Below are positions 436-12,485 of a stretch of 12,485 nucleotides of DNA, one piece after another. The stretch comes from a bacterium (GTDB lineage Bacteria > CSSED10-310 > JAJRTK01), in the NCBI GenBank assembly GCA_024278345.1, contig JAJRTK010000186.1, forward strand, positions 1 through 12,485, written 5' to 3'. The position numbers and the translations under genes are program-made. Below the pieces are notes generated by a model. That model saw only the letters and a program-made list of their open reading frames with translations, made no database searches and was not told where the DNA came from. Within the stretch, counting starts at the first letter, position 1. Every line of letters begins with the position of its first letter.

Positions 436-489
436 GCCGGAATGGCCTAGTGTCGGGATTTGACCTTCTCTGGACCTGGTGGGCGAAGC

Positions 490-3400
490 ATGGCGACCAA
501 CGGAGAAAAGCAGGAAGCAGACCGGGATTCCAGGTCGGCGTCAGAAGTGAAGCAGCCTGCTTCCAGCCTGTCCACCCAAGACGAGTTACACAGTCCGGAG
601 TTCGGAGAGGCTACCGGCGACCCCGTGGATGCTTTACCGCCGCCAAGGGAAGCTGCGCCACCGGATACCCACACGCCACGGGGCGGGCCCGACGAAACCA
701 TCGACCTTCGGGATTCCGACTCCACCACGCCGTCAAGCCTTGTATCTCCCGACGGGGCAAGGCCGATTCCCGTTGCGGAAGGAGTCTTTCGTCGAGGTGA
801 TCGGGTAGCGAATCGCTACCAGATCATTCGGTTCATCGCCCACGGTGGAGTGGGCGAGGTCTACGAGGCCCTGGATCTGGAGCTCAATCTACGAGTGGCG
901 CTCAAGACGATACGCCCTGAGCAGACCGAGACCCCCAAGATTGCGGAGCGTTTCCGGCGAGAAATCCAACTGGCAAGGAAGGTCACGCATCACAACGTTT
1001 GTCGCATCTTCGATTTCGGACGTCATCAGGCGGTGAGACAAGGGGCGGCGGAGGCCAGATCCATCCTCTTCTTGACCATGGAGTACCTGGAAGGCGAAAC
1101 ACTCTCCCACCGGCTCCGGCGAAACGGGGCACTAGCACCGGCAGAAGCCCTTCCCTTGGTGCGCCAGATGGTCAAGGCGCTCCAGGCCGCCCACGCCGTG
1201 GGAGTCATCCACCGGGACTTCAAAAGCAGCAATATCATGCTGGTGCCCTCGGCCGACGGGCAATCCGTTCCACGCCTGGTAGTCACGGACTTTGGACTGG
1301 CCAGAGCGGCATCCGGCAAGGACTCGGGGGCATCGTTCACCGGTACGGGTGGAATAGTAGGGACGCCGCTATACATGGCGCCGGAGCAGGTAGAGGGCCA
1401 GCCCACCACTCCGGTGACGGATCTCTTCGCTTTGGGCGTTGTCATGTTCGAAATGGTGACGGGCCATTTCCCGTTTACCGGAGAGTCCGCCCTCTCCACG
1501 GCGGTGCGGCGATTGCGGGAAAAGGCGCCGTCGCCGCGGATCTACACCCGGGACTTGGACCGGCAATGGGAGAAAACCATCCTTCGGTGCCTGGAGAAAA
1601 ATCCCCACAACCGTTTCGCCCGAGCAGAAGACGTGACCCGAGCACTGGAGGGCGATTCTGTCCGCCCGCCTTGGCCGGTGATTCGGTGGCGGCTCCTTGT
1701 GGCAACCCTCGTCATCTTAGTTGGGGCCGGCATCTGGAAATCGGCCGACACCTGGCTAAGAACAAAATCCGCCACGGAGACGAGCGCTTCCTCCACCACC
1801 CGGCGCACTCTGGCACTCTTCGGTTTCAAGAACCTCTCGGGACGACCCGAAAGCGACTGGATCTCCACGGCGCTGTCGGAGATGTTGGCCATGGAGATCT
1901 CCGCCGCCAAGGACCTCCGAGCGGTTCCCGGGGAGACCGTGGCCCGGGCCAAATTGGAGCTCGAACTTCCCGAAGCCGACGCCTATGCCTTGGATACTCT
2001 GGTACGCATCGGAAAAAACCTGGGCGCCGAATTGGTGGTCCTGGGCTCCTATCTGGCTAGCCGCCCCGAAGCCGGTGGCCGAGTTCGCCTGAACCTGCGC
2101 GTGCAAAGCACACGGACCGGAGAATCCGTGGTCCTTGTCTCCCTGGACGGAACCGAGGCGGGCTTGCTGGATTTGGTCTCGGAGGCGGGAAACAAGCTGC
2201 GGCGGGTCCTTGGAGTGGGCACGATCTCGCCCGCCGAGGCCGCCGCCATCCGGCTGGCGTTTCCCTCGGACGCCGAAGCAACCAAACTTTACGCTCAGGG
2301 CCTGAAACGCCTCCGACACTCCGACGCCCTCGAAGCCCGCGATCTCTTGGAAAAATCCGTTGCCGCGGATCCGGGAAACGCTCTGGCCCATGCGGCGCTG
2401 GCCGAAGCCTGGGCGGCCCTGGGACAGAGCCGCCGCTCCGAAAAAGAAGCTCGGCTGGCCTATGAACTCTCCTCGCAACTCATCGGACACCAGCGCCTCT
2501 GGGTCGAAGCGCGCTACCGCGAAGCAGCGGGAAACTGGAACGAAGCGGAAGAACTCTACCGAATGCTCTGGCAAACCTTCCCCGACGACCTGGAGTATGG
2601 GCTCCATCTGGCCAATGTGCAGATCGCAAGTGGCAATGGCCCCAAGGCCCTCCAGACCATCCACACCATTCAAGAGCAGGCGGGAAAAGGGCATGCCGAC
2701 CCAAGACTCGATCTGGCCGCGGCGCGGGCCTACTATGCCAAGGGCGATTTTGAACGGCAGCGGCAGGCAGCCGCGAAAGCAGTCCGGAAGGGACTGGCCA
2801 TCGAAGCTCAACTGCTGGTGGCACAAGCCCGCCGCCTGGAAGGCCTTGCTCTCCTCCCCCTGGGTCAACCCATGCAGGCACTAGAAAGCCTAAAAAAGGC
2901 CAAAGAAATTGCCGACGCCGCGGGGGACCGGCAACTGGCGGCCCAAGCCACCGAAGACATGGCCCGGGTCCACTGGAACCATGGCGATCTCCGAAAAGCT
3001 CTGGCCCTGTCGCGCCAAGCCCTGGGCACCTTCCAGGAAGAACAGAACATCCGGAGCATGACCTCGGCGCTCACCTTGATCTCCAGTTGCCTGGATCGGC
3101 TGGGACAGACTCAAGAAGCCACCGCCGCGGCAAAGAAATCACTGCGGCTGGCCGAAAAGCTCGACGACCTCGCCGCCGTGATTCGCGCTCAGAACAATCT
3201 GGCCGAGTTCTCACTCTGGCAAGGAAAGCTCTCCGAGGCCGAAAGCCGCTACCGCAAGATCCTGGAACTCTCGAGAAAGATCGGCTCTAAAACCGGAAGG
3301 GCGGCGGCGTTGTTGAACATGGCCATCGTGGCCCTGGAACGTGGCCAACCACGGAGAGGAACCGAAATCGCGCAACAAGCCCTGGAGGCCTTCACCGCCA

Positions 3401-4179
3401 TGCAGTTCCAACGGGGGATCGCCTGGTGTCTCTCCGAGCTGGGCCGCGCCGCCCTGGACCAAGGGCAACTCAAAGAAGCCCAAGAGAAACTCCACCAGGC
3501 TTTCAGGCTCTGCCGCGTTTACGACCTGCGCCACACCATCGGCTACGTTCTCAACAATCTGGGGAGACTGGCCCTGGTGCAAGGAGATCTGGAGACCGCC
3601 GAACGCCGCTTCCAGGAGGCCCTGAAGGAAGATCGCACACCGGAAGTGAACGCAGCCGCGAGCCAACTCGGCCTGGCCAAAGTCTACCTGGAACTCGGCG
3701 ACCTCGAAAAAAGTCGCGCACTGGCCAAAAAGAGCTTGGCCACGTTCCAAAAACGGGCCAGCCCCGGCCAACAAGCCCTGGCGCAAGTCATTCTGGCCCG
3801 CTCCTTCCTTGCACTGGGGGACCTCGCTCAAGCAGCGGCACACTCCAACCGGGCGCAAGCGTTGGCCAAGGGTCTGGAGACTCGAGGCGTCTCCTTCGAT
3901 GTCGAGTTGCTCAATCTCCGCCTGCAGGCCGCGAAAACCAACGCCAGGTCAAGGACGGGCCAGATTCGACGCCGCCTCGAGAAGCTGGAGAAACGCGCCA
4001 AGGAAGCCCATCTGGCCAAGTTCCGGTTTGCGGCGGCCATCGAGCTGGCAAGGCTGGCCATGACGGCAGGAGAATCGGCCCGCGGCCTGGAAATCCTGGA
4101 AAAAATCGACCGAGAGGCCCGGGCCTTGGGAATGGGGCTCGTTTCCCGATGGGTCGATGAGCTCCGAAATGGAAAATGA
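490..4179 (+). CDS. Transmembrane Ser/Thr protein kinase with TolB-like domain and long TPR array
   Basis: About 1229 residues. The first 100 look disordered (Pro, Asp, Ser rich). The Hanks-type kinase domain spans about 110-385: glycine loop AHGGVG (117-122, first Gly replaced by Ala), Lys139 in VALK, helix-C Glu158, HRDFKSSN (241-248, RD type), DFG (267-269), APE (297-299) and Asp311. A membrane helix at about 400-417 puts the remainder outside the cytoplasm. Residues 439-585 resemble the TolB N-terminal/FlgO-like domain of bacterial kinase and cyclase sensors (GFKNLSG near its start). From about 598 to the end there are TPRs, many with a roughly 40-residue period. The kinase should phosphorylate Ser/Thr of cytoplasmic targets in response to an envelope signal; ligand and substrates are unknown. 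ATG 490 is chosen because GGTGGG lies 6 nt upstream; an in-frame TTG at 460 would add ten residues. It is monocistronic here, convergent with the next gene. Confidence 0.93.
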   Translation: MATNGEKQEADRDSRSASEVKQPASSLSTQDELHSPEFGEATGDPVDALPPPREAAPPDTHTPRGGPDETIDLRDSDSTTPSSLVSPDGARPIPVAEGVFRRGDRVANRYQIIRFIAHGGVGEVYEALDLELNLRVALKTIRPEQTETPKIAERFRREIQLARKVTHHNVCRIFDFGRHQAVRQGAAEARSILFLTMEYLEGETLSHRLRRNGALAPAEALPLVRQMVKALQAAHAVGVIHRDFKSSNIMLVPSADGQSVPRLVVTDFGLARAASGKDSGASFTGTGGIVGTPLYMAPEQVEGQPTTPVTDLFALGVVMFEMVTGHFPFTGESALSTAVRRLREKAPSPRIYTRDLDRQWEKTILRCLEKNPHNRFARAEDVTRALEGDSVRPPWPVIRWRLLVATLVILVGAGIWKSADTWLRTKSATETSASSTTRRTLALFGFKNLSGRPESDWISTALSEMLAMEISAAKDLRAVPGETVARAKLELELPEADAYALDTLVRIGKNLGAELVVLGSYLASRPEAGGRVRLNLRVQSTRTGESVVLVSLDGTEAGLLDLVSEAGNKLRRVLGVGTISPAEAAAIRLAFPSDAEATKLYAQGLKRLRHSDALEARDLLEKSVAADPGNALAHAALAEAWAALGQSRRSEKEARLAYELSSQLIGHQRLWVEARYREAAGNWNEAEELYRMLWQTFPDDLEYGLHLANVQIASGNGPKALQTIHTIQEQAGKGHADPRLDLAAARAYYAKGDFERQRQAAAKAVRKGLAIEAQLLVAQARRLEGLALLPLGQPMQALESLKKAKEIADAAGDRQLAAQATEDMARVHWNHGDLRKALALSRQALGTFQEEQNIRSMTSALTLISSCLDRLGQTQEATAAAKKSLRLAEKLDDLAAVIRAQNNLAEFSLWQGKLSEAESRYRKILELSRKIGSKTGRAAALLNMAIVALERGQPRRGTEIAQQALEAFTAMQFQRGIAWCLSELGRAALDQGQLKEAQEKLHQAFRLCRVYDLRHTIGYVLNNLGRLALVQGDLETAERRFQEALKEDRTPEVNAAASQLGLAKVYLELGDLEKSRALAKKSLATFQKRASPGQQALAQVILARSFLALGDLAQAAAHSNRAQALAKGLETRGVSFDVELLNLRLQAAKTNARSRTGQIRRRLEKLEKRAKEAHLAKFRFAAAIELARLAMTAGESARGLEILEKIDREARALGMGLVSRWVDELRNGK

Positions 4180-6412: not shown

Positions 6413-6420
6413 TCCGGACG
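6413..6420. repeat. Target-site duplication, left copy
   Basis: TCCGGACG directly precedes the left inverted repeat of the miniature element and is repeated exactly at 6575-6582 directly after the right one. Confidence 0.85.
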
Positions 6421-6574
6421 GGGACCTATCAAATCCACACGATTCTGCTTTACAGTCCGCACTGCCGCACCGGTGGCACCGGCATCTTGCCGGTGGCGGG
6501 CCGGTCGGGATTCACGAACTTGAACGGTGGGTTCGTTTCGGGCGTGAACTTGTCAACCGGATCTGATAGGTCCC
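6421..6574 (+). mobile_element. Miniature inverted-repeat transposable element (MITE), complete copy
   Basis: The left end GGGACCTATCAAATCC (6421-6436) is the reverse complement of the right end GGATCTGATAGGTCCC (6559-6574) with one mismatch in 16. The octamer TCCGGACG abuts both ends (6413-6420 and 6575-6582), giving an 8-bp target duplication. The 154-bp element has no transposase. Its interior contains a hairpin, CACCGGC-ATCTT-GCCGGTG (6477-6495), and another with stems ACGAAC/GTTCGT (6514-6519, 6531-6536). Movement would need a transposase acting in trans that recognises GGGACCTAT ends. An 8-bp duplication occurs in several insertion sequence families, so I do not assign one. Confidence 0.88.
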
Positions 6575-6582
6575 TCCGGACG
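6575..6582. repeat. Target-site duplication, right copy
   Basis: TCCGGACG directly follows the right inverted repeat of the miniature element and matches 6413-6420 exactly. The undiverged duplication suggests a fairly recent insertion. Confidence 0.85.
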
Positions 6583-8914: not shown

Positions 8915-8929
8915 GGAGGGCGATAGGTG
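8915..8929 (+). promoter_or_regulatory. Ribosome binding site deciding the GTG start of the second kinase
   Basis: GGAGG (8915-8919) is 7 nt before GTG 8927, and there is no upstream in-frame start with a comparable site. The 30-bp gap after the preceding stop leaves little room for a separate promoter. Confidence 0.7.
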
Positions 8930-11900
8930 GCGGATGGCGAAGAGAAAAAGCTGACGCTCGACGATTTGGCCGCCGGCGTGCGGATCGGGGGCCGTTACGA
9001 TCTCAAGAGGGAGTTGGGCACTGGTGGCTTCGGGAAGGTTTTCCTTGTTCGGGATGGCGAGCTGGAGGAAGATATTGCCCTCAAGTTTTTGAGGCCCGAG
9101 CATGTCCGGGACGAAACCCAACTGGCTCGTTTCAAGCGGGAAGTGCTGCTTGCCCGGAGGATTTCCCACCCCAACGTCTGCAAGATATTCGATCTTGGGC
9201 GGGCGAACGGGCTGGTTTATCTTTCGATGGAGTACATCGAGGGAGAAGAACTCCACGGCATCACGAGGCGGATGGGTCCTCTTGCTCCTCGAACAGGCCT
9301 CAAGATCTGCTTTCAGATTTGCGACGGCTTGGAGGCCGCCCATCGGGAGAAGATCGTTCATCGGGATCTCAAACCCACCAACGTGATGCTCGATACCTCC
9401 GGAAGAGTGAAGTTGATGGACTTCGGTATCTCCAAGGCCACGGATATGGGGGGACTGACGGCTACGGGATCGCTGGTGGGGACACCGAAGTACATCGCGC
9501 CTGAGCAGTGTCGCGGGAAAGTGGGCGACCACCGAAGTGATCTCTACTCTCTGGGCGTCATGATGTACGAGCTTTTCACCAATGTACCGCCTTTCCAATC
9601 CAACACACCGATGGGGGTCCTCTTCAAGCACGTGGAGGAACTGCCGCGGCCCCCCATGGACCTGGCCCCCAGTCTTCCAGCCTCTATCAATACCTTGATC
9701 CTTCGGTGCCTGGAGAAACGACCGGAAGATCGCTACCAGTCGGCGGGTGAAATTGCCGCGGAAATCACCCGTATTCTGGCGAACACCTTGGAACCGGGGG
9801 AGAAGGTTGGAGAACCACTTTTGGGTACCGCCATCCAAGTTTCTCCGTCAAGCAATCATGACTCGTCCCAGGGGAAGCCAACTCTCAAGAAAATGACGGC
9901 TCCCTTGGTGCCAGCCGTGGAGACTCCGACAAAAAAGCAGGGAGCGACTCCCGTCTCCGCTCGGGAAGAGCTGCCGGCCCAAGGAAGCCACGTCCCACCG
10001 GCCGCGGTGACCAAGGGAACGCTGGAGATGCCTGCTGGATCTTGTCCCACCAGCGCCACTGTCGCCCTCGTGGAGACCGAACCAAAGACAAAAGCAACCG
10101 TGCTGCTGCCCGGTTTGGCTCTCGCGTATACCGATTGCGACACAAAAGAAAAGGCATCGCCAAAGGTATCTTTGGGCAAAAAAACCTCTTCGATACCCCT
10201 GGCCACAAGAAGGAAAACGAAGAACCACAGGGTGCGTCGAACCAAGAGACGATCCGCCAAGAGCGCAGACAAGCGAAGGGGCATGGAAAAACCCAAGAGA
10301 GGCGGATTGCTCAAACCCGCCCTTCTTATTCTCTTCCTGGGGTCGGCGTTCTGGTTTTTTTTACCGAGAGGCGAACTCCCACAAGTCGGTCCCGGGAAAT
10401 CGGGCAAAGAATCTGGCCTGGCAGGAGTCCGGAAACAGGTTTCCCTGGAGTCCTCCGAGGCAGGGGCACATGTTTCGAAAGAGCCCCAGAAACAGCCCAC
10501 GGCCCCGACCTCAAAAGTCCCGAGGGATGGCGCACGCCAGGAAGGGGCTCAGGAACAGCCTCTCCCCGAGCCGGCCGAGATCCGGGCACAGGCTTCCATG
10601 GAGGCTGAGAAACAGGTTTCCCTGGAGTCCCCGGAGGCAGGGGCGCCTATGCCGCAAGAGCCGCGGAAGCAGCCCACGGCCCCGACCTCAAAAGTCCCGA
10701 CGGGTGGCGTGCGTCGGGAAGAGGCTCGGGAGCAGTCTTCCGCAACAGCGTCAGAGACCGCGAGGCATGGCAGGCGCCTGAAAGAGGCACTCCAAAGAGC
10801 CCGCCGCTTCTTGGAGGAAGGACGCCTCGTCGATGCTTCCAAACCTGACGATGCTTTGCGGGCTGCCCGCCGTCTCCTGACCATCGAGCCGGGAAATCCG
10901 GAGGCGACAGCGATCCTGTCCAGGATTGCCAGCCATTATCGGAGAATCGGCCTGGAGGCGATGAAAAAGAAAGATTTTCCCGCGGCTGTCGGCGCGTTCC
11001 GGCAGGGCATCCAAGCAGTTCCCGGTGACTCGGCTCTTCAAGAAAGCCTGGATCTGGCAATTCGACAATGGGAGAAAACCACGGCCACTCGCCAACTCCT
11101 GGCCGAAGTAGATACCGCTCTTAAGAACTACGACGGTGAAACCGCTCTCAGGCTCCTGAAGCAGCAATTGGAGGATTCGCCCCACGATGAGAAAGCGTTG
11201 CGGATGGAGGCATCGGCCAAGGGGATACTTCGGGCACGGGCGGATCTCACAACGGCCACCCGCTACACAGAGGCTTGGGATCTGGAAAAAGCCGCCGCGA
11301 TGTTGGAGCTTCTCCTGGAAAAATATGGCGAATGGCCGGAGATGGTACAAGCAGACCGGGAACTCACCAGGCGGCAAGAAGCGGAAACTGCTCTTGACGA
11401 GGCCGGGAGGTTCTTGGCGGCGGCGCAACTGGACGAAGCGGCGTTGCGACTGAATGCCACCGCGCGGGATTTCCCCAACCATCCACGGCTCGCCGCCTTG
11501 CGGGAAAGATACAACAGGCAGGTCCAAGTGGCCGATCTATTGGATGCAGCCAACAAGCTTCTTCGGGGGGGCCAGTTCCATGAGGCATCGCGGAAGATTG
11601 CCGCCGCCGCACAGCTAGAACCCGAAGATCCGAAGATCAAATCGATGGAGGAGGAGCTTCAGCACGCACAACGCCGTGCGGCGGCTCGTGCGGCGGCGGC
11701 CAAGAAAAAGCAGCGGGCGCAAGAGGCCGAAAGACGACGAAAGCAGCAGTACGACGCGGCGTTTTCTAGGGCAAAAAAGGCGCTTGCTTCCGGCGACCGT
11801 AAATCGGCGGGATCGTTTCTTCGGAAGGCGGAACGCCTGGCCAGGACCCGGGCTGAGGCATCGCGGATCCAAAAACTGCGGAACCGTTTGGAAGAAGAAA

Positions 11901-12331
11901 ACACGGTTTCTTTTGGGCGACTGAAGCTTCGAATTCGCCCATGGGCCGTAGTCTTCATCGACGGTAAGAAGATCGGAAATACCCCCATCCCTCCGCAAGA
12001 ACTGTCACCTGGCAAACATACGGTTTTGCTGGAAAACAAGGACACGGCCACGCGCTTGGAAAGGCAGGTGTTGATTCGGGCGGGCGAAGAAGTGCTCCTA
12101 GAGCTGGAGCTCTCTACCGGTACCTTGGTGGTGGAGACGAATCCCACGGCCTGGGCGACCCTGAGAATACCCGGCGAATCCAAGCCTCTGGATTTGGGAA
12201 AGACGCCGGTCAACCGCCAAGTGCCGGCAGGCGTGGATCTGCAGCTTCGCCTCATCATCGGCGACCGAACCCACACCTTCAAAGTCCGGGTGCCAGGCGG
12301 CGGACAAGTTCGTGTTCAAAAAGATCTGTAG
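8927..12331 (+). CDS. Transmembrane Ser/Thr protein kinase with helical repeats and C-terminal PEGA-like domains
   Basis: 1134 residues from GTG 8927. The N-terminal Hanks-type kinase spans about 22-285, with all key residues: GTGGFG (31-36), Lys53, Glu72, HRDLKPTN (145-152), DFG (165-167), APE (191-193) and Asp205. The activation loop has several Thr/Ser before GTPKYIAPE. A low-complexity basic linker (285-460) leads to one membrane helix (464-480). Outside are two tandem 59-residue repeats (503-561, 562-620), TPR-like helical repeats (618-905), a charged, probably coiled-coil stretch (906-990) and two beta-rich PEGA-like domains (about 995-1062 and 1063-1134; the first has VFIDGKKIGNTPI and LSPGKHTV). 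PEGA domains are often envelope-located, so an envelope-sensing receptor kinase is the likely role. It is the last gene of the cluster. The first PEGA unit is more convincing than the second. Substrates are unknown. Confidence 0.93.
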   Translation: MADGEEKKLTLDDLAAGVRIGGRYDLKRELGTGGFGKVFLVRDGELEEDIALKFLRPEHVRDETQLARFKREVLLARRISHPNVCKIFDLGRANGLVYLSMEYIEGEELHGITRRMGPLAPRTGLKICFQICDGLEAAHREKIVHRDLKPTNVMLDTSGRVKLMDFGISKATDMGGLTATGSLVGTPKYIAPEQCRGKVGDHRSDLYSLGVMMYELFTNVPPFQSNTPMGVLFKHVEELPRPPMDLAPSLPASINTLILRCLEKRPEDRYQSAGEIAAEITRILANTLEPGEKVGEPLLGTAIQVSPSSNHDSSQGKPTLKKMTAPLVPAVETPTKKQGATPVSAREELPAQGSHVPPAAVTKGTLEMPAGSCPTSATVALVETEPKTKATVLLPGLALAYTDCDTKEKASPKVSLGKKTSSIPLATRRKTKNHRVRRTKRRSAKSADKRRGMEKPKRGGLLKPALLILFLGSAFWFFLPRGELPQVGPGKSGKESGLAGVRKQVSLESSEAGAHVSKEPQKQPTAPTSKVPRDGARQEGAQEQPLPEPAEIRAQASMEAEKQVSLESPEAGAPMPQEPRKQPTAPTSKVPTGGVRREEAREQSSATASETARHGRRLKEALQRARRFLEEGRLVDASKPDDALRAARRLLTIEPGNPEATAILSRIASHYRRIGLEAMKKKDFPAAVGAFRQGIQAVPGDSALQESLDLAIRQWEKTTATRQLLAEVDTALKNYDGETALRLLKQQLEDSPHDEKALRMEASAKGILRARADLTTATRYTEAWDLEKAAAMLELLLEKYGEWPEMVQADRELTRRQEAETALDEAGRFLAAAQLDEAALRLNATARDFPNHPRLAALRERYNRQVQVADLLDAANKLLRGGQFHEASRKIAAAAQLEPEDPKIKSMEEELQHAQRRAAARAAAAKKKQRAQEAERRRKQQYDAAFSRAKKALASGDRKSAGSFLRKAERLARTRAEASRIQKLRNRLEEENTVSFGRLKLRIRPWAVVFIDGKKIGNTPIPPQELSPGKHTVLLENKDTATRLERQVLIRAGEEVLLELELSTGTLVVETNPTAWATLRIPGESKPLDLGKTPVNRQVPAGVDLQLRLIIGDRTHTFKVRVPGGGQVRVQKDL
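10433..10786 (+). repeat. Two in-frame 177-bp tandem repeats inside the second kinase gene
   Basis: Two units offset by exactly 177 bp (59 codons) encode matching segments such as KQVSLES, EAGA and QPTAPTSKVP. A run of 31 identical bases occurs at 10493-10523 and 10670-10700. The end of unit 2 is more diverged. A smaller 24-bp echo (CAGGCTTCCATGGAG at 10589, CAGGTTTCCCTGGAG at 10613) crosses the unit boundary. The repeats encode the flexible linker just outside the membrane helix. Confidence 0.85.
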
Positions 12332-12346
12332 CCACCTATCGTCTCA

Positions 12347-12485
12347 GGGACCTATCAGATCCGGTTGACAACATCACCGCTGGGGCGGGCCTCCTTCCCG
12401 GCTCCGTGCAGCCCGGAGGGCGCTACACCGGCAAGATGCCGGTGCCACCGTTTCGGCGAAGAAAATTGTAAAGCAAAAACACGAC
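12347..12485 (-). mobile_element. Second miniature element copy, inverted, cut by the window end
   Basis: It begins with GGGACCTATCAGATCC (12347-12362), 15 bp after the kinase stop. Read on the minus strand, it aligns without gaps to the element at 6421-6574: 91 of the 128 positions from GCTTTACA to the GGTCCC end agree by hand count. The ends, the GCTTTACA block and the central CACCGGC-ATCTT-GCCGGTG hairpin are conserved, while the core differs. By alignment about 15 bp are missing beyond the window. Its position could also affect 3' end formation of the kinase transcript. Confidence 0.85.

Follow-up and report, generated by a model that had tools for sequence, protein, structure and literature searches.

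The window, which is the whole stretch of DNA analyzed here, was a contig of 12485 bp from the JAJRTK01 genome, a draft of 6.06 Mb in 550 contigs with a completeness of 87.9%. A host gene at 8927..12331 on the + strand encoded a Ser/Thr protein kinase with a PEGA domain (Pfam PF00069, E = 5e-54; PF08308, E = 8e-7). A second large Ser/Thr protein kinase was encoded at 460-4179; one of the two carried TPR repeats and one carried PEGA.

Fifteen base pairs downstream of the kinase gene started a repeat, designated copy 2 (12347..12485, + strand), which was truncated by the contig end after 139 of 154 bp. Position 12485 was both the last base of the contig and the last visible base of the repeat. 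Copy 2 started at 12347 with GGGACCTATCAGATC, and the sequence 12347-12485 ran from GGGACCTATCAGATCCGGTTGACAACATCACC to AAACACGAC, where the contig ended. Its left terminal and subterminal repeat, GGGACCTATCAGATCCGGTTGACAA, occupied 12347..12371 (+ strand). It was adjoined on the left by the octamer TCGTCTCA (12339..12346, + strand), the putative left copy of an 8-bp target-site duplication. A core at 12425..12450 (+ strand) contained the palindrome CACCGGCAAGATGCCGGTG, which is predicted to form a stem-loop. Among the matches listed, about 40 sequences of the genome were at least 97% identical to copy 2. A simple scan detected no promoter- or terminator-like sites in copy 2, and for this reason we claim no regulatory role for it.

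A complete relative, copy 1, was present in the same contig at 6421..6574 on the - strand. It was 154 bp long with terminal repeats at both ends, and was flanked by the identical octamer TCCGGACG on the left (6413..6420) and on the right (6575..6582). Its own relatives were found on C224, C225 and C484 at 88-97% identity. The repeat at 12347..12371 was part of a 94% match to copy 1. In an ungapped alignment, copy 2 and the reverse complement of copy 1 were identical at 96/139 positions, compared with 37 on average and at most 57 in 2,000 shuffles. The sequence-only reading, which had taken the repeat at the contig end for a second MITE copy inverse to the first, was borne out by this result.

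The same reading had supposed the family to be abundant, and a genome-wide count agreed. The 14-base end GGGACCTATCARAT occurred exactly 261 times over many contigs, while the reversed pattern, used as control, gave 0. With two ends per element, this would correspond to about 130 copies or more.

Duplications were counted in 56 unique complete copies for which both flanks were present. The terminal repeats GGGACCTATCARAT stood at both ends of the element, and the length was exactly 154 bp in 48/56. Target duplications of 8 bp, variable in sequence, were perfect in 39/56 and had one mismatch in 8/56, and a clear duplication was missing in the other 9/56. An earlier set comprised 77 entries, most copies being entered once for each strand. 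In that set 8 was the only perfect duplication length among the lengths tested, and shuffling the flanks left 0.8 cases with no more than one mismatch. The 8-bp rule that had been read from the window was thus upheld in the genome. An element of 154 bp has no room for a transposase gene. We interpreted copy 2 as almost certainly a member of a young family of non-autonomous DNA transposons (MITEs), in line with the identity first proposed for it, as the other copies in the genome show the same 154-bp length, terminal repeats and 8-bp duplications.

The copies fell into three subfamilies: A, which includes copy 2; B; and C, which includes copy 1 and has few copies. From the consensus sequences of A and B, the copies diverged by a median of 1.3%, with the C copies assigned to the A and B groups. 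A divergence of about 1% from the subfamily consensus suggested recent amplification. At L025 a subfamily-B element was nested within a subfamily-A element, with the octamer CCGCCCCA on both sides, and a chimeric or nested copy was seen at L042. Older copies, with partly different interiors, were present at L041, L083 and L212.

The MITE copies avoided genes. When 25 empty sites were rejoined, 28% of the insertions lay in an open reading frame of at least 200 aa, compared with 65% of random positions. A separate observation was an exact 14-base MITE end at L082:2456 (C142), contained in GGGACCTATCAAATCCGGATTGAC within a 169-aa open reading frame (DGTYQIRIDHFGEAD); this was either a chance occurrence or an old captured end.

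The end missing from copy 2 could be read from its relatives. Two complete subfamily-A copies, L006:3-156 and L006:850-1003 at the start of contig C207, were 154 bp long. They had the same AAACACGAC, and after it one base, T or A, in front of ATTTGATAGGTCCC, so that the sequence after ACACGAC was TATTTGATAGGTCCC or AATTTGATAGGTCCC, exactly 15 bp. The prediction had been that about 15 bp beyond 12485 would complete an inverted repeat; in copies of the same subfamily these were indeed the 15 bp made of A or T and ATTTGATAGGTCCC, ending in GATAGGTCCC.

Four other contigs (C536, C520, C306 and C219) broke off at the same ACGAC as copy 2. The breaks probably arose because the assembler was faced with identical repeat copies in which the next base was A or T. 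The junction of ATTTGATAGGTCCC with TCGTCTCA that copy 2 would form was absent from the assembly, even with up to 3 mismatches allowed. Since about 84% of the complete copies had an octamer that was perfect or had one mismatch, a right-hand TCGTCTCA is likely to follow copy 2 beyond the contig end.

Three pairs of broken contig ends shared an exact octamer and a matching subfamily, against 0.24 expected by chance. The octamer GGATTTTG rejoined C520 with C41, GATCCGGA rejoined C522 with C171, and CAAGAGCA rejoined C232 with C419. MITE copies account for many contig breaks in this assembly, and some contigs can be joined in practice through octamer matching. The boundary, the missing length and the duplication rule of a new element had been correctly deduced from raw sequence without tools.

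Because only 139 bp were visible, copy 2 might instead be one end of a full-length insertion sequence interrupted where the contig stops. Longer elements may exist, as on another contig end (C395:43026-43133) this terminal repeat adjoins non-MITE sequence. The interior of copy 2, however, was that of MITE subfamily A at 97-100% up to base 139, and complete subfamily-A copies close 15 bp further on. We therefore regarded a truncated insertion sequence as extremely improbable, and copy 2 as a MITE.

A search of the genome for five transposase families revealed no autonomous element with the MITE ends. The ends of the candidates were assigned by our own reading of their sequences. ISKra4, whose elements begin with GGG, was at first suspected as the parent, but it was rejected because the ISKra4-like remnants in this genome have GGGTGCGGCTCTTT ends. 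The IS1595 copies begin with GGCTCTATATGCGATCC, and the 3' end of an ISAs1-type element reads GATGCGATTGCCATG; both were also rejected. For ISL3, remnants were present on C5 and C395, with no GGGACCTATC end directly beside transposase sequence. IS256 was absent from the genome. Unpaired terminal repeats and 0.54 Mb of further contigs were read, with no parent insertion sequence carrying the MITE ends except for the 108-bp lead on C395.

This lead, C395:43026-43133 (L191:1027-1134), carried GGGACCTATCAAATCTGGTTTACAAGTTC, beyond which the sequence was non-MITE as far as the contig end; the sequence on C395 includes AGTTCAGGAGGCGATAGACCCGGGCGAGGG. The lead was separated from the ISL3 remnant by about 0.7 kb and was oriented away from it. 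It had no match in the plasmid collection. It may mark where an autonomous element ends, or be an old MITE that was truncated. Multicopy insertion sequences are often lost from draft assemblies of such completeness.

A second repeat family, of about 190-200 bp with inverted ends GGCCTCGGTCATGGTACCGGCCAC, was encountered on C5 at approximately L188:345-545. There it interrupted an ISL3 transposase gene and was flanked by GTTCAAGCG on either side. It was also present at L042, L070, L072, L084, L091, L093 and L095, and elsewhere its fragments adjoined truncated MITEs.

The element appeared almost private to the JAJRTK01 genome. An exact 25-base end search of a named collection of 84,980 species hit one other record, a truncated subfamily-A copy at L081:4931-5050 on a contig of a Myxococcota MAG. 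The repeats adjacent to it resembled those of the JAJRTK01 genome, and the 7 Mb Myxococcota MAG contained no further exact terminal repeat. We interpreted this record as the result of either misbinning of the contig or one transfer event. Seven genomes of the same phylum were searched without a MITE match; only short stretches around the palindromic core matched in the other genomes of that search.

The long end patterns had no match in the viral collection. Thirty-nine viral matches to a 15-mer looked like chance, and the possible end pairs that were checked did not extend as terminal repeats. The core 15-mer was not found in the literature searched, and the papers listed for the end sequence dealt with unrelated animal subjects.

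The core of the element was conserved between subfamilies, unlike part of the interior. Element positions 26-78 were only 43-49% identical between subfamily A and subfamily B or C, whereas the left 25 bp were 100% identical in the three subfamily sequences and the 26-bp core around CACCGGCAAGATGCCGGTG was nearly invariant (92-96%). In the older copies the palindrome was CACAGGCAAGATGCCTGTG, in which both sides of the stem were changed and the pairing was kept. The whole element gave an RNA fold z of -6.1, as expected from its inverted repeats, with the core predicted as a hairpin within it.

This hairpin brought up another reading, in which the mobile unit would be the core itself, a REP/BIME-type repeat moved as single-stranded DNA by a RAYT tyrosine transposase. 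In its favor, the core GTGGCACCGGCATCTTGCCGGTG is similar to GTAG-tagged REPs, and the bare palindrome is present in unrelated genomes. Moreover, in one MITE copy (L051:1571-1737, on C28) a 35-bp core unit was tandemly expanded about 4.8 times, with 98% matches, as far as the end of the contig. Transposition of the RAYT/IS200 type does not duplicate its target, but in 84% of the complete copies an 8-bp duplication with at most one mismatch was present, and most copies had precise ends at 154 bp. In the loci sampled, the core was also restricted to MITEs or to tandem units within single copies, and no free-standing palindrome units were seen. The duplications largely refuted the idea that RAYT moves the 154-bp unit, and we considered a REP-type repeat very improbable as an account of copy 2.

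Under the MITE interpretation, the family may possibly, though we put this forward only tentatively, have captured a REP-type palindrome, kept nearly invariant beside an interior of which a part differs by about half among the subfamilies, and amplified it through transposition as well as local tandem duplication. If so, the palindrome would serve a function in its own right, for example as a site for a transposase or a host factor.

In insertion sequences and MITEs, fixed-length duplications together with terminal repeats indicate a DDE transposase (PMC10969869, PMC6382973). The 8-bp duplications and the terminal repeats of this family accordingly pointed to such an enzyme acting in trans. 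It would recognize the GGGACCTATCARATC ends, make staggered cuts of 8 bp and mobilize the copies. The conserved hairpin core and the fold of the whole element might be by-products of transposition or of transcript folding, or aids to them. Copy 2 represents a new, recently amplified MITE family, ordinary in kind, from a poorly sampled phylum.

Several known systems resemble parts of this picture. ERIC and the Correia elements are likewise small and non-autonomous, with more than 100 copies per genome in some hosts (reviewed in PMC10969869); they share small size and high copy number with the present MITE and are not known to be related to it. GTAG-tagged REPs, of which GTGG variants occur in Opitutus terrae (PMC3733652), share the stem-loop core tagged with GTGG and the short loop. 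Here, on the other hand, the palindrome lies within a 154-bp element with target duplications.

MITEAba12 of Acinetobacter (PMC6382973) is also short, gene-free and near-uniform in length, with terminal repeats and target duplications. It differs in size (113 bp, compared with 154 bp here) and in its 9-bp duplications. Its proposed parent is ISAba12, and relatives of ISAba12 carry GGCTTTGTTGC-type ends, whereas for the present family, with 8-bp duplications and GGGACCTATCARAT ends, no parent was found. MITEAba12 is present in 1-22 copies per genome, and the copy number here is higher. BrickBuilt of Porphyromonas gingivalis (PMC4596501) is similarly a MITE with an internal tandem repeat, which was seen here in one copy, L051, with the 35-bp core unit. 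The duplications of BrickBuilt are inconsistent and its internal repeat is 23 nt long, while in the present family the duplications are consistently 8 bp and tandem expansion is exceptional.
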